From: Vampirovibrio chlorellavorus
GTDB lineage: Bacteria; Cyanobacteriota; Vampirovibrionia; Vampirovibrionales; Vampirovibrionaceae
Reading direction: 5' to 3'
Length of the DNA stretch: 50,153 nt
NCBI GenBank assembly: GCA_001858525.1
Contig: CM007360.1
Location: forward strand, 1 to 50,153
Below, one piece after another: positions 10,332 through 27,962 of the stretch. The notes below the pieces were generated by a model, which saw only the letters and a program-made list of their open reading frames with translations, made no database searches and was not told the DNA's origin. Each line of letters begins with the position of its first letter. The stretch's first letter is position 1. Both the position numbers and the translations under genes were made by a program.

Positions 10332-10868
10332 TTACAACAAAGGGCTTTCAGTAGGGGGTAGTTGGAAAATGGTATAGAGCGGCACTCCAAACAGATGAGC
10401 CAGAGGCAAAATTTTATCTAAGGTGATATTACAGAGCTGGCGCTCCAGCTCAGAGGTGGTGGCATAGCCTGACAGTTCATCCACTTCCTGTTGGGTATAG
10501 TCCGCTTCTTTGCGGAGTCGTTTAACGTTTTCAGCCACCAATTGCCGTTCTAGCGATGCGGGCTTAATCTGATCAATCAGGTTTTTATAACTCAACCATT
10601 CCTGAACATTGCTGAGATCCCAAAACTTATTAAAATTCGGGTTCAGCAAGGCATAGAGTGGGACCTGAACAGCATGAGAAAGCTTGGTCATGGAATCCAG
10701 ACTGATATTATAGGTGAGCCGCTCAACCCCTGAGATATAGGTGACTGTGATCCCCGTTTTGTCACTGAGAGTTTGCAAGGTATAGCCTGCAAATAACCGG
10801 GCTTCTTTTAAATTTTTCGCAAACACTTTGCGTTCAACTGGAAGGGATTTTTTCTCCAGCTTCGGCAT
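10332..10868 (-). CDS. Tandem Xre-type helix-turn-helix regulator
   Basis: The 178-residue protein is built from two copies of a Cro/C1-type HTH domain. The first spans about residues 17-72 (NLKEARLFAGYTLQTLSDKTG) and the second about 112-168 (NVKRLRKEADYTQQEVDELSG). Both end in a similar VPLY segment. It lies directly upstream of trbB, the position RP4 gives to trbA, so control of conjugation is likely, though the sequence is not TrbA. Possible promoter: TTGCAA near 11004-10999 with AATAAT at 10980-10975. A GGCAGG-CCTGCC inverted repeat at 10904-10924 in the leader could be an operator. Confidence 0.75.
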   Translation of the reverse strand: MPKLEKKSLPVERKVFAKNLKEARLFAGYTLQTLSDKTGITVTYISGVERLTYNISLDSMTKLSHAVQVPLYALLNPNFNKFWDLSNVQEWLSYKNLIDQIKPASLERQLVAENVKRLRKEADYTQQEVDELSGYATTSELERQLCNITLDKILPLAHLFGVPLYTIFQLPPTESPLL

Positions 10869-11055: not shown

Positions 11056-11712
11056 TCAGCCAGGATTGACGGCCCAGATTTTTGGAAAGGTATCCAGTTC
11101 AACAGCCATTGATTTTAAAGGCGCCCCTAAGCCCTCTAGAATGCCGAGTAAGGCTTGATAATCATCATAAAGGGTCTGCCGGTTCCAAATCGCCTCTTGA
11201 TGCGCTATGCGGTTCCGAATGACCCGCACCCGATCCAATTGTGCGTAAGCTTGCTTAGGTGACAACTTCGGATTCCCTTGGAAAACGGTTCTCATGGGTT
11301 TTTCTTTTCGCTGCCAGATAACTGGATGATAATGCGACTTGAAAAGGCTGATCCAGAAACCGAAGTTCAACTCAGCCACAAGCTTTGGGTGGCTCCATTG
11401 CCCGTTTTCCCGGAGGAGCTTTTGTTTTGCCTTTGAAACGGCATCCTGCTCTGGATTGGGAAATCCTTGATTGATCATCCGAGGTGTTCTAATCCAATAG
11501 GTGCCCTCTTTCTCAAGCCATTGTAATCCGTATAGCTGAGTCAAAGCGGCATCCATTTGGTTCCGTAAACCTACTTCCAAAAGGGAAAGCGAAGGATACA
11601 ACGCTTGGGACAGGGCCAAATTCCATTTATATCTCGCAAAAACAAGGGATTCTGGGCTTTTCCCAAGGCCATAGGCCTTAAGACGGGGCTGAGAGAGCAA
11701 ATTGATTAGCAT
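11056..11712 (-). CDS. Abi-like HEPN-domain protein
   Basis: The 218-residue protein resembles the Abi_2/AbiD-F-like family. The N-terminal part (FARYKWNLALSQALYPSLSL, then VGLRNQMD), a central WISLF and the C-terminal RVRVIRNRIAHQEAIW are typical. The last contains an R-x4-H motif (R166, H171) of HEPN ribonucleases. Such proteins act in abortive infection or as RNase toxins, and that function is inferred here. It lies 145 bases downstream of the replication-type gene pair on the same strand and could be co-transcribed with it. No antitoxin partner was seen beside it. Confidence 0.6.
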   Translation of the reverse strand: MLINLLSQPRLKAYGLGKSPESLVFARYKWNLALSQALYPSLSLLEVGLRNQMDAALTQLYGLQWLEKEGTYWIRTPRMINQGFPNPEQDAVSKAKQKLLRENGQWSHPKLVAELNFGFWISLFKSHYHPVIWQRKEKPMRTVFQGNPKLSPKQAYAQLDRVRVIRNRIAHQEAIWNRQTLYDDYQALLGILEGLGAPLKSMAVELDTFPKIWAVNPG

Positions 11713-11857: not shown

Positions 11858-12571
11858 TCATGATGGTGAGAGGCGCTCCAGCTTTTGATAGAGGGGATTG
11901 TCTAGCCCAAGCGTGTCAGCCCCTTTAGCGCGACGATACCCAAAATCCCCGGCAGCCAAGCGTTTCAAGAAAAAGGTGCGGGGATTCTGTATTTTAGGCT
12001 TTTGAGCGGCCTCCAGCGCATTAAGAACGGCAACCACGCCATAGTCCTTGCAGGCATTGGTCAGCAATTGTGGGAAGATACCCCAACCACCTTGACCCAC
12101 AGGTTTACTGGCTTCCTTGAACATGGGATGGTTATCCACGATGCCCATAATGTCCCCATAACGGCCATGCAGCTTGGCCAACTCCAGCTCCGCTTCCAGT
12201 TCACCGCGATCTCCGCCTAACAAGCAGTGAACGTTATACACTTCTTCCTCATAGGGAACATCCGGGGACTTAGCCAAGTGCTGAAAACGACTTTTGGTTT
12301 GGTATAACTGTTTTTTGCCCACCGTTACTTTGACGCTTAACGGGTTTTTGGCTTTTTTCAAAATGGCTTGTGTCAGTGCTCGCATCGCCTTTTGTTCAAT
12401 GAGTCGCTGTATATTACGAGTTGGAGCCACAATCAGGACGATGCCGTCATCGATGGAGTCGATATAGCATTGATCCAGAAGCATAAAAAACAGGCCAGGG
12501 TCTAGGGAGTCTTCCGCTTCGGCCAAGATGGCTTTCCAAAGCACTTTTTTATTTGGGATATTCAGCAGCAT
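11858..12571 (-). CDS. DnaA domain I-like protein with QGGWGI domain, second of a pair
   Basis: The 237-residue protein has an N-terminal module at about residues 11-85 (LWKAILAEAEDSLDPGLFF then VLIVAPTRNIQRLIEQK) that follows the pattern of DnaA domain I, which binds the replicative helicase. The AAA+ motor and the DNA-binding domain IV of DnaA are absent. The C-terminal part, from about 130, has HGRYGDIMGIVDN and GQGGWGI (159-165), shared with the gene just upstream. The two overlap by one base (TAATG), so they are coupled. I infer a role in plasmid replication, because no known initiator is present. The C-terminal domain is not one I recognise. Confidence 0.65.
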   Translation of the reverse strand: MLLNIPNKKVLWKAILAEAEDSLDPGLFFMLLDQCYIDSIDDGIVLIVAPTRNIQRLIEQKAMRALTQAILKKAKNPLSVKVTVGKKQLYQTKSRFQHLAKSPDVPYEEEVYNVHCLLGGDRGELEAELELAKLHGRYGDIMGIVDNHPMFKEASKPVGQGGWGIFPQLLTNACKDYGVVAVLNALEAAQKPKIQNPRTFFLKRLAAGDFGYRRAKGADTLGLDNPLYQKLERLSPS

Positions 12572-13467
12572 TACGAGGGCCTCCGGCTTGCTTCCAGACC
12601 CTTGCGCAGGATGTGGTAAAACAATTTGCCCCGGTTATTGGCCCCGCGATAAGCCACGGTCTGTCGAATGGCCCAAAGGACTTGAGCCAAGGTGTGTTGT
12701 TTGCCTGCGGTAATCATAGCCCCCACGCTGATGCCCCAGCCGCCTTGCTCGATTGGCGTACAAGGCTTCTCAAAGAGCTTGCAGTCCAAAATCACGCCGC
12801 GCATATCCCCATAGCGCTCCAGCAAAATAGCGACTTCTGGGTCATTAGTTGGATTCTGATGCGCAGCCCAAGAACTTTTTGCCGGTGCAAGAGCAGTTTC
12901 CGCCTTTTGGGCTGCTTCGCTGGTCGCCCGAGTGGTAGCCGGAAGGGTTGCGGTAGCGGAAGCGTCTACCCGTAAGCACAGTGTTAACGCTTGCCCCGTT
13001 TGGATCAAAAGCGCTTGCTCAATAGTTTTCCGGTAGCGCTTTTGGATCAATTCCCGGTTAAAATCGCTTTCAACCAGAAGGGTGAGTCGGTCATTCTCGA
13101 AGGAGATAGCTTGGCACGAGGTTATCCAGGTCTGGTAAGAAGCAGAACTCATTACCTGTTGGAGAGTTGGCTGGATAGTTTGCCATAAAGCAGCACTATC
13201 ACTTTGGAAAGCCCTAGGATCAATGCGGATTTTTGATTTTTGAGGCTTATAGGACTCAATAAGCAGCGGCTTGGGTAAAGCAATAACTTCAACATCCCTA
13301 CTTCCCTTCTTCCCTACTCCGATAGATCCCTGAAGTAGGGGGTCATTGGTGCTTAGATTCCTTTCCGGCGAGCGCGCGCGTTTTGTGCCCAAGCTGGGGC
13401 TGGCTGGCATTCCAGCTTGACTCTCCAGTGCATCATTAAATACCTCGGTTGTTAGTCGAGTGGTCAT
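12571..13467 (-). CDS. DnaA domain I-like protein with QGGWGI domain, first of a pair; candidate replication initiator
   Basis: The 298-residue protein has a disordered N-terminus to about 90 and a DnaA domain I-like module at about 94-168 (LWQTIQPTLQQVMSSASYQT then LLVESDFNRELIQKRY). An Ala-rich linker follows, then the C-terminal domain shared with the next gene: LLERYGDMRG (216-224) and EQGGWGI (240-246), ending with LFYHILRKG. The start ATG 13467 has GGAG 6 bases upstream. The leader upstream holds a strong promoter, an attenuator and an antisense RNA, the kind of control used for plasmid initiator genes. The initiator role is inferred. It could also be a helicase-loading partner. Confidence 0.68.
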   Translation of the reverse strand: MTTRLTTEVFNDALESQAGMPASPSLGTKRARSPERNLSTNDPLLQGSIGVGKKGSRDVEVIALPKPLLIESYKPQKSKIRIDPRAFQSDSAALWQTIQPTLQQVMSSASYQTWITSCQAISFENDRLTLLVESDFNRELIQKRYRKTIEQALLIQTGQALTLCLRVDASATATLPATTRATSEAAQKAETALAPAKSSWAAHQNPTNDPEVAILLERYGDMRGVILDCKLFEKPCTPIEQGGWGISVGAMITAGKQHTLAQVLWAIRQTVAYRGANNRGKLFYHILRKGLEASRRPS

Positions 13468-13503: not shown

Positions 13504-13532
13504 TTGACCGCGCGATCGCAAGGCGGTAAGAT
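13504..13532 (+). promoter_or_regulatory. Promoter of the antisense RNA in the rep leader
   Basis: TTGACC (13504-13509), exactly 17 bases, then TAAGAT (13527-13532). Start is predicted near 13539. It faces the candidate rep gene's own transcript, so its product would be a countertranscript. Confidence 0.55.
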
Positions 13533-13538
13533 CTTATT

Positions 13539-13600
13539 GTGAGCTTAGTCAGCTAACTCTAAATTTTGAAAAAGTCTCTGTTGGCGCAGAGGCTTTTTTG
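13539..13600 (+). ncRNA. Predicted antisense RNA of about 60 nt to the rep leader
   Basis: Between the promoter above and a T-run lie two hairpins. The first is GAGCTTAG/CTAACTC with loop TCAG (13541-13559, one bulged C). The second is GTCTCTG/CAGAGGC with loop TTGGCG (13574-13593), followed by TTTTTT (13594-13599). The second loop contains UUGG, which fits the YUNR loop motif common in antisense plasmid RNAs. No open frame is present. The RNA is fully complementary to the predicted rep-gene leader. Confidence 0.5.
13568..13600. terminator. Bidirectional intrinsic terminator / rep attenuator
   Basis: The stem GTCTCTG/CAGAGGC (7 pairs, one G-T) is flanked by AAAAA (13569-13573) on the left and TTTTTT on the right. 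It therefore ends the antisense RNA on the plus strand and can end the rep leader transcript on the minus strand, about 100 bases before the rep start codon. Confidence 0.6.
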
Positions 13601-13636
13601 TTTGTCAGTTTTTCTTTTCTAGTCCTCCTTTGGTTT

Positions 13637-13671: not shown

Positions 13672-13699
13672 ATCATAGTGATCTTTTACGCCTAGTCAA
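13672..13699 (-). promoter_or_regulatory. Promoter of the candidate rep operon
   Basis: On the minus strand TTGACT (13699-13694), 16 bases, TATGAT (13677-13672). Predicted start near 13665 gives a leader of about 200 bases before the ATG at 13467, covering the attenuator and the antisense RNA. Confidence 0.6.
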
Positions 13700-13748: not shown

Positions 13749-13777
13749 TTGCCTTACTGATAGCTGTGAACTATTCT
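13749..13777 (+). promoter_or_regulatory. Putative autoregulated promoter of the HTH-coiled-coil gene
   Basis: TTGCCT (13749-13754), 17 bases, TATTCT (13772-13777). The -10 box is overlapped by GAACTATTC (13768-13776), one of the repeats that surround this gene, which suggests repression by its own HTH product. Confidence 0.4.
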
Positions 13778-14484
13778 TGAATAATTCATGAAAAGTTTTG
13801 AGTTTTTCACGAACTGTTCATGTAACAAGATCTAAACAGTTCAAGCTGAATAAGGCAAGGACAAAATGAACAATCCAAATAAAGACATGAATGATCCAGA
13901 AGAGCTAACTGTTGCAGAGTATGCTAAACGCTTTGATATTTCTGAAAATACTGTTAGGACTAGGATAAACCGTAAAAAACTTAAGACAATTAAAGGTGTT
14001 CGCGATGGTCGTGAAACCATTTTTATTATTGTTGAAGGATCTATGGATCATTCAATGGATGATTCAGAACAGTTTGAAACTGTTCATGATGCTATTTATG
14101 AACCATCCATTCCTAATGTGGAACAGTCTGATAAATTGTTCACCTTTATGAGAGAAACTTTTTCAACAGTTCAAGCTTATAATTCCCAAATTGTTGAACT
14201 ATCTAGGGAAAATGAGCGCTATAAGCTTCTTACAGATAGTAGCACCCGTGAAGCACATAGCCTTGAACAATCTCTTGAACAACTCAAGAATCAGTTGTTT
14301 GAAAAGGATGCAAAGATTAAAGAACTTGAAGCTAAAAGTCCAAGTCATGAGCTCAATGCTAAAATTACCCAGCTTGAAGCAGCTTTAGTAGAAAAAGAAG
14401 CCCAGATTCTTTCTTTATCGAAAGAATTGAGTGATGAGCGGGCTAAAGGCATTATTACCAGACTATTTGGTAAGTGAACAGTTC
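13768..14484. repeat. GAACWGTTC repeat family around and inside the HTH-coiled-coil gene
   Basis: Copies of a 9-base palindrome-like element occur at 13768 (GAACTATTC), 13779 (GAATAATTC), 13811 (GAACTGTTC), 13834 (AAACAGTTC), 14067-14085 (a perfect 19-base palindrome of two copies), 14164 (CAACAGTTC) and 14476 (GAACAGTTC). The upstream copies start 11, 32 and 23 bases apart, near whole helical turns. The sequence AACAGTTCAAGCT is repeated exactly at 13835 and 14165. They may be operators, iterons or a centromere-like site. Confidence 0.6.
13866..14477 (+). CDS. HTH plus coiled-coil protein, KfrA/partition-like
   Basis: The 203-residue protein has an N-terminal helix-turn-helix at about 14-60 (LTVAEYAKRFDISENTVRTR), a Ser/Asp-rich linker, a long coiled coil at about 105-195 with heptad Leu/Glu/Lys pattern, and a C-terminal GIITRLFGK tip. 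This architecture is shared by KfrA-type and other plasmid segregation or copy-control proteins, but I cannot assign a named family. The gene is clearly richer in A+T than its neighbours. AAGGAC lies close before the ATG. The GAACWGTTC repeats in its promoter, coding region and 3' end are the probable binding sites. It faces away from the rep operon. Confidence 0.65.
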   Translation: MNNPNKDMNDPEELTVAEYAKRFDISENTVRTRINRKKLKTIKGVRDGRETIFIIVEGSMDHSMDDSEQFETVHDAIYEPSIPNVEQSDKLFTFMRETFSTVQAYNSQIVELSRENERYKLLTDSSTREAHSLEQSLEQLKNQLFEKDAKIKELEAKSPSHELNAKITQLEAALVEKEAQILSLSKELSDERAKGIITRLFGK

Positions 14485-14497
14485 ATGGCTTTCATTG

Positions 14498-15754
14498 CTA
14501 TTCTCCCCACAAACTAGCAATGGGAACGGCCCATAAGTTTTCTCCAAAGGCCACGGTTTGCTCCCCAGTATGCAGCACAATTCCCACGAAACGGGCTGGT
14601 TGATACTTTTCTCGAAACCAGCGTAGGTGGGTAAAGTGTCGGGATGAGAGATTGGCCCCTGCTTTCACTTCAATGGCCAAAATAGCCCCATTCTGCCCTT
14701 CAATTAAAAAATCTATTTCATGGCGATCCCGATCGCGGTAGTGATAAAGCTGATAATCCCGTCCCAAGGTATCAACTTCCGAAGCAAGTTGGGTGTAAAC
14801 GAAGGTTTCGATGAGCTTACCCAAACGGTCATCCGCAAAACGACTTTCCGCTTCTTTCCATCGCAAGGTCGCTGCCAAAAGGCCGGTATCACTCATAAAA
14901 AGCTTATCCTGCTTGCCAATCCGGGCATAATCGTTGTTTGACCAAGCCGGTAATCGGTCAATGAGGTACAGGGCTTCTAGCAAATGGATGTAGCTGCTCA
15001 AAGTGGGCCTCGCCAGCTCCAGAGAAGTACCAATGGCAGAGAGATCCATCAGCTTGCTAGACCAAGCGGCCAGCGCTTGAATCAACCGCCGCATTTCATG
15101 GCGGCGCTTGATTTGTGTGATGTACTGGACATCCTTGTCCAAGAGTGTGTCCAGATAATCCCCATACCAATCAGGCCGGGCGCTTTGGGGCAGTCGAACG
15201 GCTTCGGGAAAGCCTCCTTGAAAGGCTAAAGACACAATGGCGTCTTGGTCATATTGCTTATTGGGTTTGGGAAAATCTTCTTCAAAGGCCCGTTGAACAA
15301 AGCCAGGTGGTTGTTCCAATAATTCGCCTTGAGTCAATGGACGTAAACGAAGTGTCCTAATCCGGCCTGCCAGAGATTCAGTGACATTAGGTAAGGCGTT
15401 GAGGCTGGCAGAGCCGGTTAGGATAAACTGGCCCGGTCGATCATCCTCATCCACTTGCATTTTAATGGCGGGGATGAGGCCTGGCTCCTTCTGGATCTCG
15501 TCAATAATCAGGCATCGCCCGGTATGTTTGAGAAAAGTTTTATAATTAGCGCTGGCCGCTTTAAGCAGTAAATCATCGTCTAGGGTTCGGTATTCGGTAT
15601 CTGCCCCGGCAACGCGTTTTGCCAAGGTAGACTTCCCGGTTTGGCGCGCTCCAGTCAGCAAAATGACGCGTCGCGTCGTCAAAGCACTCTGCAAGTTGGT
15701 CTGCTGCCATCTAGGATAGAACGGATTTTGAGGCAAAGGTAATTCCTCTAGCAT
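14498..15754 (-). CDS. DUF4143-type AAA ATPase (first copy)
   Basis: This belongs to the AAA_14/DUF4143 family. It has Walker A LLTGARQTGKST, Walker B RCLIIDEIQK, a sensor-like FILTGSASLNALP, and a C-terminal DUF4143 region with a nuclease-like EIDFLIEG and AIEVKAG pair. I start it at ATG 15754. The open frame reaches a GTG at 15781 without a ribosome site, and the ATG also has a weak one. A 7-base inverted repeat CTATTCT/AGAATAG at 15781-15801 lies just upstream. The cellular role of the family is not established. A related gene is at 45584-46846. Confidence 0.8.
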   Translation of the reverse strand: MLEELPLPQNPFYPRWQQTNLQSALTTRRVILLTGARQTGKSTLAKRVAGADTEYRTLDDDLLLKAASANYKTFLKHTGRCLIIDEIQKEPGLIPAIKMQVDEDDRPGQFILTGSASLNALPNVTESLAGRIRTLRLRPLTQGELLEQPPGFVQRAFEEDFPKPNKQYDQDAIVSLAFQGGFPEAVRLPQSARPDWYGDYLDTLLDKDVQYITQIKRRHEMRRLIQALAAWSSKLMDLSAIGTSLELARPTLSSYIHLLEALYLIDRLPAWSNNDYARIGKQDKLFMSDTGLLAATLRWKEAESRFADDRLGKLIETFVYTQLASEVDTLGRDYQLYHYRDRDRHEIDFLIEGQNGAILAIEVKAGANLSSRHFTHLRWFREKYQPARFVGIVLHTGEQTVAFGENLWAVPIASLWGE

Positions 15755-15781
15755 CCAAAAGGACCACTGTAAAAATATCAC

Positions 15782-16280
15782 TATTCTAAAGCTAAGAATA
15801 GCGCAATATGTAAAACAAGGCTAGCGCATTTCGGTAATAATTTATCTGGGTAGTTATCCACAATCTTCAGAAATGTAAGCCCCTGCTGCCAGACAGGGTA
15901 ATAAAGCGGCCTCGTCTAACAGGAGCATTTCTGACTTGATAGTAGGCGTCCAAACTTCTTCAATTTTAGTATTAGCGGGCCTGCAAAAGTAGTAGTAGCA
16001 AATTATCAGGAGAGGTTTGCTTGTGATGGGATTTACCGTAGACCCAGCACGGGCCCTTCAAGATGGCATAGGCCGCATTAGTTTTTGGCTATCCTCAACT
16101 GTTTTTCGGGATTTTATCGCTCACAGTTCTTTTTACCAGGGCTTTGCCCTCGACAGGTCAAGGGTAAAGGCTTCGCCCGGCTCCTCGCGTCGCCGCCCTT
16201 GACCCGTCTCACCCGATAGTACGCCAGGAAGGGAGGTCGGCACCAATTGACCGGCATTTAAAAATTAAGGAGTTGAACCC
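15782..16280. other. Non-coding region with DnaA box, candidate oriV
   Basis: This roughly 500-base stretch has no long gene. It contains one perfect DnaA box, TTATCCACA, at 15854-15862 in an A+T-rich part. A large inverted repeat GAC-A-GGTCAAGGG ... CCCTTGACC-C-GTC spans 16152-16208, and a small AGGGC/GCCCT hairpin lies near 16138-16150. A short frame (GTG at 16023 or ATG at 16026, to 16202, about 58 codons) has an AGGAGAGG site upstream. I do not recognise its product and it may be a leader. A vegetative origin is possible here but unproven. Confidence 0.4.
16152..16208. repeat. Large inverted repeat upstream of the LPD29 gene
   Basis: Arms GGTCAAGGG (16156-16164) and CCCTTGACC (16196-16204) are perfect 9-base complements. 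GAC and GTC extend them beyond one mismatch. The 31-base loop is GC-rich. It could be an origin structure or an RNA hairpin in the leader of the gene at 16281. Confidence 0.55.
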
Positions 16281-17717: not shown

Positions 17718-18122
17718 ATGAGCCAAACGTTTCGTTTTTTAATCACAGCAATGATTGCCCTGATCCTGTTTATAGGACAGGGGTTGGCTGCGTTTTCAGC
17801 CGAGAAAATGGCTTGTTGTCAGAAGATGGTGGTGCAAGCAGAACATGCGTGCTGTCAGCACGATGCTTTGAAGGGGATCAAATCAATCAAACCCCTCTCA
17901 TCGAAAGTTCAAGCTTGCTTTTGCGATACCGATGGCAAACAGGCTTTGGCCAATGACGCATACCCAGCGCAAAATCTCAAGCTGGTGGCTGTATCTTCTC
18001 TGAACCCACAACCCTTCCAAAGCCTCCAACTCAGTGATGCCGGTAAACCCATCTGGCTTTATTGGCAGTTTTACCTGGATCAATCCAGGCTTTATCAACA
18101 AAAAAACAGTTGGCTCCTTTAA
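17718..18122 (+). CDS. Secreted Cys/His-rich protein, first gene of the RND operon
   Basis: The 134-residue protein has a signal peptide (MSQTFRFLITAMIALILFIG, cleaved near AAFSA), then paired cysteines and histidines (MACCQKM, EHACCQHD, QACFCDTDG) that suggest periplasmic metal binding. It precedes an RND adaptor, pump and TolC channel, so a metal-sensing or metal-chaperone role is plausible. The family is not one I can name. No ribosome site precedes the ATG, and the promoter nearly touches it. Confidence 0.6.
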   Translation: MSQTFRFLITAMIALILFIGQGLAAFSAEKMACCQKMVVQAEHACCQHDALKGIKSIKPLSSKVQACFCDTDGKQALANDAYPAQNLKLVAVSSLNPQPFQSLQLSDAGKPIWLYWQFYLDQSRLYQQKNSWLL

Positions 18123-18251
18123 AACCGGCAACCTCACCAGTATTTTAGCTGGTCTTGTTTGCGTTTCAGGTTTTAATGGAGCTTTTTTGTATGCTATTTC
18201 TTGCTTTCGTCGAGCTTTTAAATGCTTCCCCTCTTCCTAGGAGGCTGGCTC

Positions 18252-19976
18252 ATGCGTTCTAAAAGTGATAAGCCCTTTTTTCAATGGGCCAAACCGTTTG
18301 CCATTATCTTTGCCTTAGTTTTCCTGGCCTGGCTGGTGCAATGGATTGTTAAAACCTACCAGAAGCCCAATCACATGGGCGTGATCGAATCCCAAGCCAT
18401 GGACATGAGCGTTCAGCCACCCGCTGGGGCCATGCCGGTTCAAACGGAAATCGTGAAATCACAACCGTTCACCAGCAGCGTGACTTATACTGGCAGCGCA
18501 GTCGCCTACAACGATATTGCCATCTTTCCTCGCGTGGAAGGCCGCATTGTGGCCATGTCGGTCTATCCAGGAGATCGGGTGCAGGCGGGCCAATTACTGG
18601 CGCAATTGGATACCCAGGAATTAACCTCCAAAGTCCGGGAAGCTCAATACGGACAACGGGCAGCCACGCAGCAGTATTATGCCTCTCTTAGCCAGCAAGG
18701 GCAGGCTTCCGCGCAAATGCAACGCGCGCAAGAGTCCATTCAGGCCGCTAAGGCCAATCTTGCCTACCGGGAAGCGCAAATCAAACGCTCCCAGGCCCTG
18801 GTTAAAGAAGCGGTGATTACCCAGGAAGAGGCGCAAAAAGATGAGTCAGACTTTAGAACCGCTCAGTCGGAATATCAACAAGCCTTGGCGGAACTGAGAG
18901 CCGCCCAAAGAGGAGCCAGCGCCAGCCAGTACCAAAGCAATGCCCAACGCGCCCAGGCCACCCAAGCCAACGCCGCCTTGCAAACCCAATCCATCATCCG
19001 AGGCTATACCCGCATCACAGCTCCCCAGGCGGGCGTGGTGACCCAGCGGCTGATCAGCCCCGGTACCCTGGTGAGTCCCGGTATGAGCATTCTGCAAGTG
19101 GCCCAGATTAACCCAATTCGCATTCAGGCCAACGTGGCCGAAAGCGATGTGGCCCTCATTCGGCCCGGCGCAACCGTGATTATCCGGGATCAAAAATCTC
19201 AGTCCCAAAAGCCCATTACCGGTAAAGTGAGCGCCATTTTTCCCAGAACGGATCTACAGACCCGCACCACCATTATGGAAGCGGTCATTTCCAATGAGCA
19301 AGCGCAATTCCTGCCCGGTGACTTTGTAAGCGTCAGCATCCACACCGGCCAGCAAGCGCCACGTTTGACGGTTCCACAAACAGCCCTGGTTGAGCGCAAC
19401 CAGCAGCAGGCAGTCTGGGTGGTACGCGATGGAACAGCCCACTTGCAATACGTTAGCACTGGCGATAGTAACGGCCAGCGGATGGCCGTGGTATCGGGCC
19501 TTACTGAAGGCGATGAAGTGATTGTGCAAGGCCAGCGGGATTTAACCGAAGGCGTTTTGGTTGCCCAGGCGGAGTATGGCTCTCAAGGATTAAAAACCCT
19601 GCCCAAACCCAGCAGTTCTAACCGGCTGAGCGCCAATAACCAGTACCAGCTTAAAAAATCCGTGGGCATGTACTTGGCCACCCTAACCCTGAAAAGCAAA
19701 CCGCCTAAGCCGGGAGCCAACACGCTCATGATCGAGCTGGTTTCCGGGCCGGGGATGAGCATGCCCCTGGATAACCTGAACCTGGAAGCCACCACGTTGA
19801 TGCCTTCAATGGCCAAAATGCCCGTTCCCAAGCCAACGGTTCAGAAAATGGGCGCAGGCCGGTTCCAGGCCAACTTAGATTGGATGATGGGCGGCCTCTG
19901 GCAAGTCACGCTAACTGTCAAGGACGGCAATCAGGTCATCGGAAGCATCCCGGTTGAGATTGAGGTGGCCAACTGA
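18252..19976 (+). CDS. RND periplasmic adaptor with C-terminal YtkA-like domain
   Basis: This is the membrane-fusion subunit that links the pump to the outer-membrane channel. It is 574 residues long from ATG 18252, which has AGGAGG 7 bases upstream. After an N-terminal membrane helix it shows the HlyD/biotinyl-lipoyl half motifs (RVEGRIVAMSVYPGDRVQAG and TRITAPQAGVVTQRLISPG), a long helical hairpin between them, and beta-barrel and membrane-proximal domains. The last 100 or so residues (GANTLMIELVSGPGMSMP ... MMGGLWQVTLTV) look like a FixH/YtkA domain, an unusual fusion with Met-rich stretches that may bind copper. Confidence 0.88.
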   Translation: MRSKSDKPFFQWAKPFAIIFALVFLAWLVQWIVKTYQKPNHMGVIESQAMDMSVQPPAGAMPVQTEIVKSQPFTSSVTYTGSAVAYNDIAIFPRVEGRIVAMSVYPGDRVQAGQLLAQLDTQELTSKVREAQYGQRAATQQYYASLSQQGQASAQMQRAQESIQAAKANLAYREAQIKRSQALVKEAVITQEEAQKDESDFRTAQSEYQQALAELRAAQRGASASQYQSNAQRAQATQANAALQTQSIIRGYTRITAPQAGVVTQRLISPGTLVSPGMSILQVAQINPIRIQANVAESDVALIRPGATVIIRDQKSQSQKPITGKVSAIFPRTDLQTRTTIMEAVISNEQAQFLPGDFVSVSIHTGQQAPRLTVPQTALVERNQQQAVWVVRDGTAHLQYVSTGDSNGQRMAVVSGLTEGDEVIVQGQRDLTEGVLVAQAEYGSQGLKTLPKPSSSNRLSANNQYQLKKSVGMYLATLTLKSKPPKPGANTLMIELVSGPGMSMPLDNLNLEATTLMPSMAKMPVPKPTVQKMGAGRFQANLDWMMGGLWQVTLTVKDGNQVIGSIPVEIEVAN

Positions 19977-22900
19977 TGCAGCGCTCTCATTCACCGTTTA
20001 ATATTTCCCAATGGTCAATCCAGCATCCCTATGTGATTTTGGCGTTTTTTGCCGCCATGCTCATTCTGAGTGTGATGGCCATTAAAGACTACATGCCCCG
20101 GCGCATGATGCCTTACGTGGAAAGCCCCATGGTGGGCATTGTTTCCATGATGCCCGGCTTATCGGCGGAAGAGATGGAAACCTATATTGCCAAGCCCGTT
20201 GAGGAGCGAATGACCGCCATTCGCAACGTCCGTTTTATCCGCTCCACGTCTCAGGAAGGCTTTTCCATTGTCTCTCTGGAATTTCCCTACGGGACGAATA
20301 TGCAAAAAGCCCTGGTCGATGTGCAGACCCTGACCAACGTGGTGCAGGCGGATTTGCCAGTGACCGGGGCCAACTTGAAACCCTCGTGGGTGCTACCGAT
20401 TGACCCTTTAAATATTCCAGTGCTGACGGTCAGCTTAACGGGTGATGAGCGTTGGGACAAAGCCCGCTTGCGGCAGTTGGCCGATAACGAGGTCATCAAC
20501 CGCTTGAAAGGGGTGCCCAATGTTTATACGGTGAGCACCTATGGCGGGGCCAAGCGGCAAATGCAGGTGATTGTGGATCGCAATAAGCTGGCCGCTTATG
20601 GCTTGTCCATTCTGGATGTCCGAAAAGCCCTGGATGAGTACAACGTGGCGCGTCCGGCGGGAACGCTAACCAGCGGCACCGAGGAAGCCATTGTGCGCGT
20701 GAATACATTGGCCAGCCAAGCCAGCGATATTTCCCGGATTCCGGTCAAAACCACCCCGGAGGGCCAAGTGGTGACAGTACAAGACATTGGCCAGGTCTTG
20801 GATACCGTTTCAGAACCGCGCAGCGCTTACCATTATGTCAATCAAGGCAAAATTCAGAACGCGGTCGCAATTAACGTACTGCAAAACCCGGAAGCCAGCT
20901 CTCCTAATGTGATTCAGGACACGGAAAAATTACTTCGCCAATTGGAAAAACAACATTCAGGTATTCATTTTGAAGTGGCCTATGACAACGCCCACTTTGT
21001 GAATGTGCTGATGGAAAACATGGTGGAAGAGCTGGCCGTCGCTATTTTGCTCACCGGAATCGCTGTCTTCTTCTTCCTGGGAAACTGGCGGGCCACGATC
21101 ATTTCCCTGATTACCATTCCTGTTTCTCTGGCAATGGCTGTGCTGGGCATGTTGGCCTTGGGGCTGACCCTGAACAGCTCCACGCTCATTGGCCTGTTGC
21201 TTTCCATTGGCCGCCTGGTGGACGATTCGATTATCGATATTCACGCGGTGGAAAAGCACCTGCGCTTGGGGAAAGATCCGGTGAGCGCCACGGTGGACGG
21301 GATTACGGAAGTGCGCCTGGCGGTGGCCGCCTCTACCTTGATGCTGATTTTAGCCTTGACGCCCCTCTTTTTTGCCGGTGGCATTGTCCAGCAAATGTTT
21401 GTGGGTTTGGTCTGGCCGATTATTCTGGGGTTGATCGCGTCTTTCCTTGTCTCTCTGACTTTAACCGCGCTCTTGGCCGCCAAGTTCCTGAAACCGCATG
21501 AAGAAACGGCCACTCAAAAACGGCCCTGGTTTTACCGGACAGTGGTCGATCCATTCCAGCGCTTTCTGGATAAAACGGAGCATCATTACGGGAGCCTGGT
21601 GCGCTGGTCGTTGGGCAATCGCTTTACGGTGGTGGCCATTGCGCTGGCCACCATCATCATTGGCTTTGGATTTTATAACTTCATCGGCAGCGAGATGATG
21701 CCCCTGGCCGATGTGGGGCAGGCTTACGGGATTTTGGAAACCAAGCCCGGCACCACCTTTGCCCGTACTGAACAAATAGTGACTGAGGTAGAAAAGCTCT
21801 TGGCCCAGCAGCCCGAAGTGCTGAAAGTCTCCACCGAGTTGGGTGCGGAATCGGGGCCGGTCTTTTCAGGAACGGGCGCGGTTTATTTTACCGGCTATTC
21901 CATGGGACAAACCAATGGCGCCTCCCTGATGATTACCCTCAGCGATAAGGGGGATCGTCGCCGCACCATATGGCAGGTGATTGACCAAGTGCACCGGGAA
22001 GCCTTGAGGCGATACCCTGATGAGATTCGCCGGTTTCAGATCAAGGAAATGGGTTCCGATGTCATGGCTTCCTCTCAAGCGCCTATTTCGGTGCTGATTG
22101 CAGGCCCGGATCTGGCGGTGCTGGATCAGTTGGGGAAACAAGTGGCCGAGATTGCCCGCAAGACGCCGGGGCTGGCTCAGGTATCGACGGACTGGACGCT
22201 TGGCTTGCCCACCAAGGAGTTGGAGATTGACCAGAAAAAGGCCCAAGCCTTTGGCCTCAGCCCTCAGATGATTTCCGATCAACTCTATTACGCCTTGCGT
22301 GGTGGATTTACTTCGGAATATTACCGCCTACCCAACTTGCGGCAAAATACCGTTTTGCTTCGCTATGCGGATGACCAACGGCGCAACAACGGACAAGATC
22401 TGGCGCAAGCCTATCTCACCAATGCACAAGGGCAATCGGTGCCGGTTAAGTCCGTGGCTACGGTGGTGGAGCGCTCTTCACCCACGGTTATTACCCATGA
22501 CGGGATGCGCCGGGTCATTAGCGTATTAGGGTTTTATCGACCTAACGGGCCACCCAGCATGGATTTGACCATGGATGTGCTACAAAAATCCGTATCTGAA
22601 TTAAATTGGCCGCCCGGTTACAGCATTGAGGTTCGGGGTGATATGACCCAGATGACTGATAGTTTCAAACGGCTTTTAAGTGGCCTAGGCTTGGCGATTC
22701 TGATGATCCTCCTGGTGTTGATTGCTCAATTTCGGGGACTCTTGCAGCCGTTTCAGATGATTTTATCTTTGCCGCTGGAATTAACGGGCGTGTTGATTGG
22801 TTTGGCGGTGATGGGCCAAGCCTTTTCAACTGTGTCTATTATGGCCGTGATTATCCTAACCGGGATGGACATTACTACCGCCATTTTGATGATCGATCTC

Positions 22901-23209
22901 ATGAATCAACACCGCAAAGCCGGGATGTCCGAAGCGGAATCGATTGAAAAAGGGGCCGTGGAAAGGTTGCGCCCCATCTTAATGACATCGATTATCACCA
23001 TTGTGGTCATGTTGCCGGTATCCCTTGCCCCTAAAACCGGCATTGATGCCTATTCACCTCTGGGCACTGTCATTGTTTGGGGCTTGATTGCCGGAACCTT
23101 GCTCAGCTTGCTGGTGATTCCAGTCATGCACAGCCTGACGGATGAAGCTTTGGAGCGCATCCGTAAACGGCAATCCCGCGTTTTAATCAAAGGAAACCAA
23201 CAACTATGA
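19976..23209 (+). CDS. RND efflux pump, CusA/AcrB-like
   Basis: This is a 1077-residue inner-membrane proton-driven efflux pump with 12 predicted membrane helices and two large periplasmic loops. The N-terminal helix is followed by a porter domain beginning PMVGIVSMMPGLSAEEMETY. Membrane segment 4 carries GRLVDDSIIDIHAVEKHLR with the proton-relay aspartates. It overlaps the adaptor stop (TGATG) and the following TolC gene (ATGA). Substrate cannot be read from the sequence. Neighbouring copper genes favour copper or silver, while the helix-4 signature is nearer to drug-type RND pumps than to CzcA. Confidence 0.88.
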   Translation: MQRSHSPFNISQWSIQHPYVILAFFAAMLILSVMAIKDYMPRRMMPYVESPMVGIVSMMPGLSAEEMETYIAKPVEERMTAIRNVRFIRSTSQEGFSIVSLEFPYGTNMQKALVDVQTLTNVVQADLPVTGANLKPSWVLPIDPLNIPVLTVSLTGDERWDKARLRQLADNEVINRLKGVPNVYTVSTYGGAKRQMQVIVDRNKLAAYGLSILDVRKALDEYNVARPAGTLTSGTEEAIVRVNTLASQASDISRIPVKTTPEGQVVTVQDIGQVLDTVSEPRSAYHYVNQGKIQNAVAINVLQNPEASSPNVIQDTEKLLRQLEKQHSGIHFEVAYDNAHFVNVLMENMVEELAVAILLTGIAVFFFLGNWRATIISLITIPVSLAMAVLGMLALGLTLNSSTLIGLLLSIGRLVDDSIIDIHAVEKHLRLGKDPVSATVDGITEVRLAVAASTLMLILALTPLFFAGGIVQQMFVGLVWPIILGLIASFLVSLTLTALLAAKFLKPHEETATQKRPWFYRTVVDPFQRFLDKTEHHYGSLVRWSLGNRFTVVAIALATIIIGFGFYNFIGSEMMPLADVGQAYGILETKPGTTFARTEQIVTEVEKLLAQQPEVLKVSTELGAESGPVFSGTGAVYFTGYSMGQTNGASLMITLSDKGDRRRTIWQVIDQVHREALRRYPDEIRRFQIKEMGSDVMASSQAPISVLIAGPDLAVLDQLGKQVAEIARKTPGLAQVSTDWTLGLPTKELEIDQKKAQAFGLSPQMISDQLYYALRGGFTSEYYRLPNLRQNTVLLRYADDQRRNNGQDLAQAYLTNAQGQSVPVKSVATVVERSSPTVITHDGMRRVISVLGFYRPNGPPSMDLTMDVLQKSVSELNWPPGYSIEVRGDMTQMTDSFKRLLSGLGLAILMILLVLIAQFRGLLQPFQMILSLPLELTGVLIGLAVMGQAFSTVSIMAVIILTGMDITTAILMIDLMNQHRKAGMSEAESIEKGAVERLRPILMTSIITIVVMLPVSLAPKTGIDAYSPLGTVIVWGLIAGTLLSLLVIPVMHSLTDEALERIRKRQSRVLIKGNQQL

Positions 23210-24606
23210 AACCTACTCCACTGATGGCGATGGTAACCAGCCTCTCGCTGTCACTCTCCCTGCCGTTGGGCTTGGCCCAGGAGCCTGATCATACGGCGAT
23301 GCAAATGTCTCATGGTGAAACCACTTTAGAGCATGTTCATTTGGTAGTGCCCAAAGGCTTGTTGTCTGGTTTTCCGGTGGTGGATCAAAGCTTAACTTTG
23401 CCTCAGGCGGTTGAATTGGGCTTAAAAAACAATGTTCAGCTTAGTGTGGCCCAAGCGGAAACCAGTATCCAGCGATCGATTCTGCAACGGGCGCAAGCCA
23501 GGCGCTGGCCTGTTTTCAGCGTGGGAGCGCTTACTTTCATTCGGGCAGGCAACAGCCAAACCCTGATGACCCCGGATATGATGATGAACACGGTTGATTC
23601 AACTGTTTTTCAAGATTTAAACGCCACGGCTAAATTGCCCCTATTCACGGGCGGAGCCATTACCGCTGGCATTCGAGCCACCCGTTCCGCAATGAGCGGG
23701 GCGGAAGCTGAAGCCCGGTTGGCGGCAGTGGAAATGGCCTATCAGGTCAGAGAAACCTATTTAAAGGCGCAATTGTCTCATGCCGAGCATGGGGTGCATC
23801 AGCAGCATATTGACGTGCAACAGGCGTTGCTTAAAAATGCCGAAGCCCGTTTTCAAGTCGGGCGTGGCCTAAAGGCCGATGTCTTGCGAATTCAAACGGA
23901 ACTGGCCGATGCCCAGCGTATGCTCAATGAGGAGCATGCCAGCTTGAATAACCAGTTATTGGATTTAAAAGCGGCTATGGGCATTGATTTGGGTTCCACC
24001 ATTTCCATCGCTGACTCTTTAAAAGCCCAACCCTGGACTGGCGCTCAATTGCCAGCGTTGATTCAAGTGGCGGTTGCCCAGCATCCCATGGTATTGAAGG
24101 CCCAAGCGGCGGTTCAAGAGGCCAACGCCCAAGTTCGTGTTGCTAAAGCCGCTTTATTGCCACAAGTGTATGGCCAAATGACGGGAAACCTACGATTCCC
24201 GACCGAAGCCCCCATGATGGGCAATGGGGTCATTGGCATGCTGAACGCGTCTATGCCCGTGTTTGATAAAAACAGGCTGAGTGAAATTTCGGAAGCCTCA
24301 GCTCGCTTGAAAAAAGCGGAACAGGAATTGAAAGCGCGTCAATTAGAGATCGGTAAACAAGTGGCTCAAGCCTGGAACGAGATGGATTTCGCGAATCAAA
24401 ATATCCAGTTGGCCAATGCGGCCATTACCCAAGCCCAAGAGGATTACCGGCTGATTCAAAGGCGGGCGGACGTGGGCCGCTCCATACAGGTTGAGGTGCA
24501 GGACGCGGCCTTGAAATGGCGCGAAGCGGGCCTGAATCAGGCCACTGCCAATTACAACTATGAATGGGCTAAAGCCAAGCTATTAAGGGCTGCTGGTCAA
24601 GTGTGA
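23206..24606 (+). CDS. TolC-family outer-membrane efflux channel
   Basis: The 466-residue protein has a signal peptide and a Met/His-rich segment just after it (HTAMQMSHGETTLEHVHL), unusual for TolC and suggestive of copper binding. Two repeats of the outer-membrane-efflux domain follow (LTLPQAVELGLKNNVQLSVA at the start of the first). It starts within the pump gene (ATGA overlap). It completes a tripartite export system with the adaptor and pump. Confidence 0.88.
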   Translation: MKPTPLMAMVTSLSLSLSLPLGLAQEPDHTAMQMSHGETTLEHVHLVVPKGLLSGFPVVDQSLTLPQAVELGLKNNVQLSVAQAETSIQRSILQRAQARRWPVFSVGALTFIRAGNSQTLMTPDMMMNTVDSTVFQDLNATAKLPLFTGGAITAGIRATRSAMSGAEAEARLAAVEMAYQVRETYLKAQLSHAEHGVHQQHIDVQQALLKNAEARFQVGRGLKADVLRIQTELADAQRMLNEEHASLNNQLLDLKAAMGIDLGSTISIADSLKAQPWTGAQLPALIQVAVAQHPMVLKAQAAVQEANAQVRVAKAALLPQVYGQMTGNLRFPTEAPMMGNGVIGMLNASMPVFDKNRLSEISEASARLKKAEQELKARQLEIGKQVAQAWNEMDFANQNIQLANAAITQAQEDYRLIQRRADVGRSIQVEVQDAALKWREAGLNQATANYNYEWAKAKLLRAAGQV

Positions 24607-24620
24607 AGCAGATTGCCTAT

Positions 24621-24971
24621 TTACTTCCCATACCAGGCTTTACGCCAAGCTTTTAACTGGCTGATTTCTTTTTCCTGACTATCGATAATGTTTTGGGCCA
24701 TAGTTTTGATTTCAGTATGTTGCGCTTTTTTCTGAGCGTCTTTGGCCATTTTGACTGCCCCTTCATGGTGCGGAATCATGGCATTGATAAAGCGCAAATC
24801 ATAGTTTTTATCGGCTTTACCCAGGTTGCTCATCATCATTTGTTGCGGGCAATGATGCGGTTTCATTCCAGATTCTTTCGACGGGGTATGCGCTGCGTGG
24901 GAATTGACGGAGATCAATGCCAATGCAGTCAGTAAGTTCGTTGCCAACACGGCCAAAACTATTTTTTTCAA
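24621..24971 (-). CDS. DUF305 periplasmic copper-associated protein
   Basis: The 116-residue protein has a signal peptide (cleaved near SHAAHTP) and the DUF305 motif KADKNYDLRFINAMIPHHEG, a ferritin-like helical His/Met-rich fold found in periplasmic copper-binding proteins such as CopM. A HHCPQQMMMSN stretch adds likely ligands. It starts at TTG 24971 with GGAG 8 bases upstream and is read divergently from merR. It probably buffers copper in the periplasm. Confidence 0.85.
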   Translation of the reverse strand: MKKIVLAVLATNLLTALALISVNSHAAHTPSKESGMKPHHCPQQMMMSNLGKADKNYDLRFINAMIPHHEGAVKMAKDAQKKAQHTEIKTMAQNIIDSQEKEISQLKAWRKAWYGK

Positions 24972-25081
24972 AATAAAGTCTCCTCACTCAACCATTACCT
25001 GCATTTTACGGCTTCAAGCAATGGACACTATTCCCCGGCAGGGTAGGCCATTGCACTAAAAGGCTATTTAAACGAATGGGG

Positions 25082-25113
25082 TTGACCCTGTATTATACTA
25101 CAGGGTTTAGAAT
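25082..25113 (+). promoter_or_regulatory. MerR-type operator-promoter
   Basis: -35 TTGACC (25082-25087) and -10 TAGAAT (25108-25113) are separated by 20 bases, the over-long spacing of MerR-controlled promoters. Between them lies the perfect dyad ACCCTGTA-TTATAC-TACAGGGT (25085-25106). It would drive merR and the P-type ATPase. Confidence 0.85.
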
Positions 25114-25141
25114 GACAGGGTAGTAAAAAGGTCAATCCAAG

Positions 25142-25567
25142 ATGAAGCCATTAACGCGAAAACAGGTGGCTGATGCAGCCCAGGTCACAATTGAAGCGGT
25201 TCGATTCTATGAAAAGGAAGTGCTGATTGCGGAACCACCCAGAACTGAGGCCGGTTATCGCCAATATCCGGCAGATACAGTAAAGCGCCTCCGCTTTATC
25301 AAGCGCGCGCAAAGCCTGGGCTTTTCGCTCCCGGAAATCAGGGAATTACTGGCCCTGCGGGTTGATCCAGAAACAACCGCAGCCGACATTCGCCATCGTG
25401 CCCAGCAGAAGATTCAGGAGATTGAACAGAAGATCCAAGCCTTGCATTCCATGAAGCTGGCGCTGGAACGCATCACGGAAACCTGTCATGGCAGTGGCCT
25501 AGCCAGTGAATGCCCGATTTTAGACGCTTTAGACCAGGAAGCAAACAAAGGAGAGCCAAAGCCATGA
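25142..25567 (+). CDS. MerR-family heavy-metal-responsive regulator
   Basis: The 141-residue protein has an N-terminal MerR winged HTH ([20 protein letters not shown]), a long dimerisation helix and a metal-binding loop with C115 and C124 (TCHGSG then SECPIL). The cysteine usually found near position 80 in ZntR, CueR and MerR is absent (TAADIRHR). Its own promoter has a perfect MerR dyad, so it autoregulates and activates the overlapping P-type ATPase gene (ATGA). The effector is probably copper by context, but the Cys pattern is also seen in regulators of other soft metals. Confidence 0.88.
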
Positions 25568-27954
25568 ACCAACCGAAAGAACATCCATGCTGTAGTGCTT
25601 CTCATACCCCAGAAGTAAAGCAGGCAACCGTGAGTGTCGTCGATCCCGTCTGTGGCATGACCGTCAATCCAGAGACAACAGAGCTGAAATCCACTTACCA
25701 AGGTGAAACTTTCCACTTCTGTAGTCCGCATTGCCTGAGCAAATTTGACGCTGATCCCAGGCAAGCGCTGGCTCAAAGCGGGCCGCAAGCCCAATCTGAT
25801 TCAAGCGGTAAGGACGATACTAACCTGTACACCTGCCCCATGCACCCTGAAATTCAGCAGCAAGGCCCTGGCACCTGTCCCATGTGCGGCATGGCCCTGG
25901 AGCCAATGACCATCAGCCTGGAAGATCAGGCCGATCCTGAATTGGCGCAGATGGGGCAACGCTTCAAGTACAGCAGTATTCTAGCCGCCCTGGTGGTTGT
26001 TTTTGCGATGTCCAAGCATATTCCAGGCTTGCCTTGGTCTGACTGGCTTTCAATGCAAACAGGCCAGTGGATTGAATTGGCTTTGACCACTCCCGTGGTG
26101 CTATGGGGCGGTTGGCCTTTTTTCCAGCGGGGCTGGGCCTCTATTTTGAACCGACACCTAAATATGTTTACCCTGATTGCGATTGGCACCGGGGTGGCCT
26201 ACCTTTACAGCGTAGTGGCCACGGTTGCCCCTGAGATTTTTCCGGCCTCGTTTAAGGACGCCCACGGTACGGTCGGGGTGTATTTTGAAGCGGCTGCCGC
26301 CATTACAGCGCTGGTGCTACTGGGACAAGTGCTGGAATTGAAAGCCCGACAGCAAACCAGCGGCGCAATTAAGCAATTGCTGGGGCTGGCCCCCAAAACG
26401 GCCCGGCTGATTGATGAGCAAGGGCAGGAATCCGATATTGCTTTGGAATCGGTACAAGCCGGGGATCGCCTCCGCATCCGTCCCGGAGAAAAAGTACCGG
26501 TGGACGGGCGGGTGATTGACGGAAAAAGTAATATCGATGAATCCATGATCACCGGGGAACCGCTTCCGGTGGAAAAAACGCCCGGTGATCAAGTCACGGG
26601 GGGAACCGTCAACGGGACGGGTAGCCTGATTATGCAAGCTGAGCGGGTGGGTAAAGACACACTTTTGTCTCAAATTGTCCAGATGGTGTCGGAAGCCCAG
26701 CGGAGTCGAGCGCCGATTCAGCGGCTGGCAGATACGGTGGCGGGTTGGTTTGTGCCCTTGGTATTGCTGGTGGCAGTCATCACCTTTGCCATTTGGGCAA
26801 CGGTCGGCCCGGAGCCACGGTTTGCGTATGCCTTGGTGAATGCGGTCGCCGTTTTAATTATTGCCTGCCCGTGTGCCTTGGGTTTGGCCACCCCCATGTC
26901 GATTATGGTGGGAACCGGGCGGGGCGCTTCGGAAGGGGTGTTGATTAAAAACGCTGAAGCATTGGAAACCCTGGAGAAGGTCAACACTGTGGTGGTGGAT
27001 AAAACTGGCACCCTGACTGAAGGCAAGCCGAAACTGGCCCAGATGATCAGCGTATCGCCCGAATTCGATGAAACGCGACTCTTGCTTCTGGCGGCCTCTT
27101 TGGAGCAAGGCAGCGAGCATCCTTTGGCGGAAGCGATTGTGCGAGGAGCCAAAGCCCGTAACTTATCCTTGTTGCCAGTCAAAAATTTCCAATCGATAAC
27201 CGGGCAAGGGGTTATTGGACAAATTCAAAGCCAAACTGTGAAACTGGGCAACCAGCGGATGATGTCAGCGCTTTCCCTGAAAATGCTTAAAAAAGAAACG
27301 CTTGAAAAACAGACTAATGAGATGCGCCAACAAGGCCAGACTGTTATGTATATCGCCGTGGATGAACAATTGGCGGGCCTGGTTTCGGTGGTCGATCCCA
27401 TCAAAGCTTCGACGCAGGAGGCCATTCAGCAACTTCACGCGGAAGGCATCCAGATCATCATGGTAACCGGGGATAACCGGCAAACGGCTGAGGCGGTGGC
27501 TAAAACGTTGGGACTGGATCAAGTCGAGGCGGATGTCTTACCTGAGCAGAAGCATGAAATCATCAAGCGCCTGCAAGCGGAAGGGCGAATTGTGGCAATG
27601 GCAGGGGATGGTATTAATGACGCGCCTGCCCTGGCTCAGGCGCAAGTAGGAATCGCCATGGGTACCGGCACGGATGTGGCCATTGAAAGCGCCGGAATTA
27701 CTTTAGTCAAAGGAGACTTGCGAGGGGTGATTAAGGCCATCCGGCTGAGCCGGGCCACGATGCGTAATATTCGCCTCAACCTGTTTTTTGCTTTTGTCTA
27801 TAACCTGCTGGGTGTCCCGATTGCGGCAGGATTGCTGTATCCGTTCACCGGCATTTTGCTCAGCCCGATGGTGGCTGCGGCGGCCATGAGCCTGAGTTCC
27901 GTTTCAGTGATTGGTAATGCCTTGCTCCTACGAAGAGTAAAGATCCACCCCTGA
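25564..27954 (+). CDS. Copper-translocating P1B-type ATPase
   Basis: This 796-residue heavy-metal ATPase is started at ATG 25564, which overlaps the merR stop and follows AAAGGAG. N-terminal modules are a CCSASH motif, a YHS domain ([10 protein letters not shown], about 27-65) and a short heavy-metal-binding domain YTCPMHPEI...CPMCGM (89-110). No classical HMA domain is present. The core has the transport motif CPC (near 434), the phosphorylation site DKTGT (near 479) and [10 protein letters not shown]. The last helices carry YNLLGVP and [13 protein letters not shown]-type residues of Cu(I) pumps (P1B-1), here as [14 protein letters not shown]. It exports copper across the inner membrane. Confidence 0.93.
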
Positions 27955-27962
27955 TTAGTGCT

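Follow-up and report, generated by a model that had tools for sequence, protein, structure and literature searches.

Which genes start the replication of a plasmid in which no familiar initiator is seen? Vampirovibrio chlorellavorus is a non-photosynthetic, algae-eating relative of the cyanobacteria and a predator of Chlorella. The stretch of DNA analysed here (50,153 nucleotides, hereafter the window) is the complete contig C2 of its genome (G000; 3,030,228 bases in 28 contigs) and, judging by its size and gene content, a plasmid of ~50 kb. The published assembly, according to an excerpt of its description, comprises 26 contigs and two plasmids of ~72 and ~50 kb, with a total of 3,030,230 bases; the ends of both plasmids join, i.e., they are circular, and their coverage is that of the chromosome, so they are low-copy (PMC4451040). 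In that excerpt the word DnaA is absent and no plasmid replication gene is discussed. The first-pass annotation had taken the window for apparently a whole plasmid in which a pair of tandem genes was the only initiator visible, and both ideas are borne out: the window is an entire contig that agrees in size with one of the two circular plasmids (PMC4451040), and no second initiator family was found among the 44 window proteins scanned with Pfam. The best reading of that pair, which we favour with moderate confidence, is a replication-initiation operon under antisense control (Table 1).

Table 1. Coordinates, strand and description of the features discussed, in positions of the window
Feature	Position	Strand	Description
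Two-XRE protein	10332-10868	-	two XRE-type HTH domains; sister-plasmid relative at 34% identity
Abi_2-like protein	11056-11712		64% identical to sister-plasmid counterpart
Short protein, 237 aa	11858..12571	-	divergent DnaA domain I and QGGWGI domain
RYGD/QGGWGI helical domain, short protein	11933..12163	-	AlphaFold model covers 11912-12208
Divergent DnaA domain I of short protein, aa 12-101	12269..12538	-	NCBIfam partial match; hhalign
Long protein, 298 aa	12571..13467	-	variable N-terminus, DnaA domain I, linker, QGGWGI domain
RYGD/QGGWGI helical domain, long protein	12586..12816	-	six-row profile A6
DnaA domain I of long protein, aa 93-153	13009..13191	-	Pfam PF11638
Predicted antisense-RNA promoter	13504..13532	+	TTGACC-17-TAAGAT; 9/12 consensus bases
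Inverted repeat ACCGC-N11-GCGGT	13507..13527		within antisense promoter
Predicted antisense RNA, ~64 nt	13539..13602	+	hairpin and U-run end; MFE -20.9 kcal/mol; ends inferred
Predicted promoter of pair	13672..13699	-	TTGACT-16-TATGAT; leader ~200 nt
Cluster of 11 TGAACNGTTCA-like palindromes	13767..14485		up to 2 mismatches; centromere- or iteron-like
Divergent gene, 203 aa	13866..14477	+	HTH-like N-terminus, coiled coil, amphipathic C-terminus (..GIITRLFGK)
AAA_14/DUF4143 ATPase gene, first of two	14498-15781	-	
Perfect DnaA box	15854-15862		in replication region
Metal-efflux island	17718-34795		two RND systems, P-type ATPase, MerR regulator, cation diffusion gene
PemK/MazF-type toxin	34995-35357		
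OLD-like ATPase	36536-38560		TOPRIM match
AAA_14/DUF4143 ATPase gene, second of two	45584-46846	+	
ArdC-type/Toprim protein	47020-49332	-	ArdC-type N-terminus, metallopeptidase, Toprim; also on sister plasmid

Are these genes, as was initially proposed, overlapping tandem paralogues that each join a DnaA domain I to a shared C-terminal domain, with neither an AAA+ motor nor a helix-turn-helix (HTH)? According to the coordinates of the open reading frames (ORFs), the two minus-strand genes overlap by one base, and BLASTP identifies their products as paralogues (E 1e-10, 22% identity over 187 aa). Neither of them has a match to AAA+ domain III, domain IV or HTH families (Pfam, E up to 1). Tandem paralogy, overlap and lack of a motor all stand. 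With regard to domain I, profile and structure comparisons of the N-termini, which had been suggested as a check, uphold it clearly for the long protein and only in a divergent form for the short one. The former matches Pfam DnaA_N (PF11638) at E 2.6e-12 and 46.7 bits (cut-off 24.6) over aa 93-153, and the DnaA domain I structure 4tps_B of the PDB at E 1e-6. The latter has no DnaA_N match (Pfam, E up to 1); its match to the NCBIfam DnaA model (E 9.2e-5) covers model positions 1-90 and stays far under the whole-protein cut-off, and in a single hhalign comparison its N-terminus together with the sister-plasmid protein aligns with a DnaA domain I profile at a probability of 95.6 (E 1.3e-8). Its N-terminus shows the element order a-a-b-b-a-b in a low-confidence single-sequence model (mean pLDDT 44); a fold search with such a model of the whole short protein was dropped, the model being too poor.

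The domain I of the long protein apparently derives from a Vampirovibrionales DnaA. In a tree of 18 rows it sits among the DnaAs of that order, where its partner, at 95/98, is a DnaA of the same family, and the domains I of the two short proteins (that of the window and that of the sister plasmid) form a separate, very long branch; its exact position is unsure because the alignment has 83 columns and the end branches are long, and the tree is compatible with a single origin of all three plasmid domains I. The alignment column that we equate with E. coli Phe46 contains F in the long protein and in the host DnaA, and N and S in the two short proteins; the long protein also preserves, in the alignment, the helix that the host DnaA has in its domain I. 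In E. coli DnaA, Glu21 and Phe46 of domain I constitute the DnaB/DiaA site (PMC5742627, in excerpt). By analogy, the long protein of the window plasmid is likely to recruit the helicase via domain I, in which case the plasmid would need no motor of its own, because the domain would bring the DnaB of the host; the short paralogue, in which the conserved surface residue is lost, would probably act as a partner or regulator. The same retained helix could, on the other hand, make the protein a decoy that competes for DnaB or for partners of DnaA and stops the chromosome from out-competing the plasmid, for which there is a precedent in the cryptic-prophage protein YfdR, which, like others, binds the domain I surface in E. 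coli (PMC5742627, in excerpt). This seems quite improbable, since it would leave the plasmid without an initiator and the copy-control-like antisense layout described below unexplained, and the operon is conserved on a sister plasmid even though no domain I is seen in the long protein there.

The C-terminal domain is shared by both proteins as originally described, with RYGD and QGGWGI motifs ~20 residues apart. The six-row profile A6 matches that of the long protein at E 4.0e-34, this row being itself part of the profile, and an AlphaFold model built on the two window sequences consists of six helices, with a pLDDT of 80 in the best of five models and of 50-57 in the other four. The structure search envisaged for this domain returned no significant match, either with Foldseek (best E 3.7 in the PDB and 2.1 in BFVD) or with VIA-align (Z 3.8 at most), and a check for a DnaD/DnaB DDBH2-type relationship yielded, at no better than E 8.8, a single phage fragment whose name refers to replication initiation and membrane attachment. 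This helical domain would be the plasmid-specific part of the proteins, and it probably binds the origin or a partner.

Is the pair found elsewhere? The same operon is present on the sister plasmid (contig C1, 71,965 bases), whose short protein is 39% identical over 221 aa to that of the window and whose long protein is 40% identical over 108 aa in its C-terminal part. Both plasmids have in common, in addition, conjugation genes, an XRE regulator, an Abi_2-like gene, a DUF4143 ATPase and two small genes. No initiator was found among the 14 C1 proteins scanned with Pfam, the remaining C1 ORFs being compared with the window only. The IstB protein of an IS21 element on C1 matches the DnaA ATPase family and was read as a transposition helper instead of an initiator. 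Pfam and NCBIfam show no domain I in the C1 long protein, where a very divergent one could be hidden, given that the domain I of the short proteins escapes Pfam as well.

Beyond the two plasmids, a four-row profile of the C-terminal domain searched against the 382 genomes of the class recovered both of them, a weak match in genome G012 and a spurious one in G290. With the G012 match added to the profile, the 18 genomes of the order gave a second G012 locus, itself absent from the profile, at E 1.9e-18. The resulting six-row profile found no further credible genome in the 382 of the class or in the 386 of the phylum (E up to 0.001; G012 was not matched there), two sets that overlap. The matches in G290 (E 8.4e-4, four internal stops) and G372 (E 4.5e-4, inside an unrelated large protein) were dropped as chance, as were, for their weakness, four genomes of the order search (best E 0.095-0.365) and a third G012 match (E 0.47); eight further genomes at E 0.007-0.1 in the six-row class search were not counted. 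In the public collections, the long protein and the C-terminal profile had no relative in genome_contigs. In viral_contigs the C-terminal profile, the short protein and the sister-plasmid orthologue of the latter matched nothing, and the long protein had no match among phage records. Among plasmid records, the long protein retrieved three dnaA genes only, the sister-plasmid short protein three arsA genes only (E 0.4), and the short protein and one G012 protein nothing, so the pair was met on no further plasmid with these four queries; the long protein of the sister plasmid and the second G012 protein were left out of the public-collection searches. A literature search had no paper on this gene pair among the matches listed.

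The two G012 proteins (128 and 129 aa) have ~50 residues ahead of the shared domain, which is not enough to hold a domain I; neither a Pfam match nor a recognisable domain I was found in them. As these relatives and the C1 long protein show none, domain I is not the defining part of the family, the common part being the C-terminal domain, and helicase recruitment by domain I cannot be general to it. The second G012 copy (contig C150) lies between a methyltransferase and an isocitrate-dehydrogenase-like gene, with hemJ-like and epimerase genes near (ORFs read by eye), neighbours that make it look chromosomal; the first (C179) is on a 7.8 kb contig, where no plasmid gene was found in the five ORFs scanned. 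Their G+C contents are 0.48 and 0.52, versus 0.55 and 0.56 for their contigs. No empty site could be read at C150, as each of the three relatives compared has a different neighbourhood upstream of icd. A TTATAATTATAA palindrome occurs twice inside each G012 gene (L038:2422-2463 and L050:9315-9356), where it codes for NYNYK-like repeat peptides, with no copy in those stretches of the Vampirovibrio plasmids that were compared; pairs of DUE-like TATAATTATAA are likewise present in both G012 genes, with none in the fetched sister-plasmid stretches or in the replication region of the window.

The chromosomal-looking G012 copy is what speaks most strongly against the pair being a plasmid initiator and nothing else. 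The G012 copies may possibly be integrated replicons, or they may reflect a wider use of the module. Could the pair and its antisense RNA then be a mobile or chromosomal regulatory cassette, concerned with maintenance or resembling a toxin-antitoxin system, while the plasmid replicates via an unrecognised gene? Two G012 copies without domain I, at least one of them chromosomal-looking, with a lower G+C content than their contigs, would be in agreement with it. We nonetheless regard it as rather unlikely: no other initiator family appears in the 44 window proteins scanned with Pfam, the pair adjoins a Par-like gene on both plasmids, domain I links the long protein to replication, and PADLOC had no match for the four pair-type proteins tested.

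Upstream of the pair, a predicted antisense RNA faces the leader of the mRNA of the pair. At all four loci (those of both plasmids and of G012) the plus strand contains TTGACC followed, after 17 or 18 bases, by TAAGAT, TAGAAT, TACAAT and TACAAT, respectively, and the distances from this predicted promoter to the start codon are 36, 33, 39 and 32 nt, taking as start codons a GTG at one G012 locus (L046:1857, by homology) and, in C1, the ATG at L009:7457 instead of an upstream TTG. The proportion of shuffles with a promoter scoring at least 9 in the same 100 nt is 3.2, 5.2, 3.8 and 6.4% per locus, and the loci are not four independent events, because they are two related pairs. The two plasmids have the same 25-base promoter core save for two free bases at its centre, AT in one and TA in the other, a change that keeps the palindrome, and this core is absent from the other 57 genomes searched (up to 3 mismatches); the ACCGC-N11-GCGGT repeat inside the promoter is a candidate operator or leader hairpin. 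The predicted RNAs are 64, 56, 58 and 54 nt long and end in a 3' hairpin in every case, according to folding; a scan tool flagged a plus-strand terminator at two of the four loci, and Rfam gave no family at gathering score at any of them. Farther out, a minus-strand promoter-like site with a 16-base spacing occurs at all four loci, leading to leaders of ~180-390 nt that include the antisense target, and since 0.6-1.2 promoter-like sites are expected by chance per region in such scans, a single one proves little. RNA folding at the four loci gave no clear access switch at the start region when the antisense target was blocked (unpaired values of 0.32/0.31, 0.48/0.40, 0.41/0.32 and 0.07/0.08).

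By analogy, this layout is that of antisense-controlled plasmid rep genes (PMC5703833, in excerpt). In pSK41/pSK1 and pT181/pIP501 there is also a short RNA counter-transcribed to the rep leader (PMC5703833, in excerpt), here a predicted one; their initiator families differ from the pair. The predicted RNA of the window would, through its action on the leader (possibly by attenuation, or on translation by sequestration of the ribosome-binding site), set the initiator level and the copy number.

Each of the four loci also has a coiled-coil protein gene, oriented divergently from the pair. The window protein matches HTH_17 at E 3.8e-4 and 21.1 bits (under the cut-off of 27), one G012 protein matches sigma-70 region 4 at E 0.009, below the Pfam cut-off, and the other two have no Pfam HTH match, their HTH-like N-terminus being read by eye. 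A strong amphipathic moment is present at the extreme C-terminus in two of the four, and that of the window protein presumably resembles the MinD tail. DUF536 was matched neither by three of the divergent proteins (E up to 1; for that of the window, in the best 25 of 29 matches) nor by the fourth (E up to 0.01), and two of them tested with PADLOC gave weak HTH and coiled-coil matches. In pSK1, par is divergent from rep. Both pSK1 Par and RocS act as one protein without an NTPase partner and have an N-terminal HTH, a coiled coil and an amphipathic C-terminus, the part order of the divergent protein (PMC11500499, in excerpt). The divergent proteins, however, show no DUF536 match, with an HTH below cut-off in two of the four and an amphipathic end clear in two, and because DUF536 was not found they are called Par-like in layout and not members of that family. 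The TGAACNGTTCA-like palindromes number 11 in 0.7 kb versus 24 in the other 49.4 kb, the motif having been chosen from the same region; as a control, 60 random palindromes gave at most 4 sites in such a span, and at the remaining three loci a similar palindrome scan showed nothing of the sort. Judging by this layout, the divergent protein and the palindromes might serve partition or copy control in the fashion of pSK1 Par or RocS.

Does all this amount to a new type of initiation, as the first-pass annotation had it? A plasmid search with the domain I of the long protein matched 60 records, and among the 40 listed are dnaA genes, chance hits and Bacillus proteins annotated as DnaA N-terminal domain-containing or HTH, including proteins on pBS72 (KX711616) and on the vector pHT01. 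We take this gene of KX711616 to be pBS72 repA, and pHT01 presumably uses the pBS72 replicon. The proteins of pHT01 and of B. licheniformis pCR3 have HTH_36 followed by a C-terminal DnaA_N (Pfam). KX711616 is pBS72, a theta-replicating plasmid according to reference titles (PMC8708921, in excerpt). The RepA-type protein of pBS72/pHT01 (344 aa) resembles the long protein in being plasmid-encoded and in having a DnaA domain I but no AAA+ match, this domain being 39% identical over 57 aa, whereas it has it at the C-terminus, joined to HTH_36 and without a QGGWGI domain, and no significant similarity to the long protein was found beyond domain I. In addition, as excerpts of the literature have it, all sequenced Rickettsia plasmids encode a DnaA_N-bearing protein (DALP) taken as the initiator (PMC4316617), a ‘Ca. 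Megaira’ plasmid has two DnaA_N-like paralogues (PMC4316617, PMC9098888), and Rickettsia parA plus dnaA-like regions support shuttle vectors (PMC3244465). By its published description, as excerpted, DALP has a variable body that ends in DnaA_N; the matches listed (40 of 60) included none from Rickettsia, and the collection may contain none. Motor-less DnaA_N plasmid initiators are thus a known kind, given these Bacillus and Rickettsia examples, and the claim of a new type was too strong (PMC4316617, PMC9098888, in excerpt). What is new here is the partner domain, the tandem operon, the host lineage and the domain order: compared with both the pBS72 type and DALP, DnaA_N is internal in the long protein (298 aa, DnaA_N at aa 93-153) and is followed by another domain, and the HTH_36 of the pBS72 type is missing.

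It could also be argued that the host DnaA initiates at an unrecognised origin on the plasmid and that the pair merely regulates this process, considering the perfect DnaA box in the replication region. However, there are 2 exact boxes in the 50 kb of the window versus 1.2 expected, and 14 versus 9.5 with one mismatch, so neither enrichment nor clustering is supported, no exact box was found near the pair of the sister plasmid, and we hold this explanation to be very improbable. No origin was located in the window by its boxes, and its GC skew was not decisive.

We return to the pair as the probable replication-initiation operon of a low-copy conjugative plasmid, a context made stronger than it first seemed by the operon on the sister plasmid, the antisense layout and the adjacent Par-like gene. 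A more far-reaching proposal, which we put forward as speculative, is that the QGGWGI domain, seen without domain I in the relatives, is the ancestral, origin-acting core of a new initiator class, that DnaA domain I was acquired on the Vampirovibrio plasmids, perhaps twice independently, to plug into the helicase loading of the host, and that an antisense RNA controls this module, next to which a single protein sees to partition. If the pair does start replication, it would be a replication module for plasmids of a non-photosynthetic cyanobacterial lineage, with a C-terminal domain met in no plasmid record searched, and a natural experiment on what portion of DnaA suffices for starting a replicon, with domain I alone placed on an unrelated domain. 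The question is testable by cloning because the module is small (~2.6 kb, the divergent gene included), and a vector for a Chlorella predator could come out of a replicon that works.

Some other features of the plasmids deserve mention. The only other replication-flavoured protein noticed in the window is the ArdC-type/Toprim one, which is primase-like. The two-XRE protein has a weak TrbA match and is a possible transfer or copy regulator, while the OLD-like ATPase, the PemK/MazF-type toxin and the Abi_2-like protein are possible defence or maintenance genes. The first AAA_14/DUF4143 gene adjoins the replication region, and a relative is placed likewise on the sister plasmid. An Rfam traJ-II RNA (E 5e-5) precedes a NikA-like gene on the sister plasmid (L009:17395-17492, plus strand). 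Finally, a conserved non-coding stretch rich in inverted repeats (..AGGGCTTTGCCCTCG..AAGGGTAAAGGCTT..CGCCC..) is found at ~16139-16215 of the window and at ~10001-10079 of L009 on the sister plasmid, upstream of a DUF3768 gene on both, with one intervening gene in the window.
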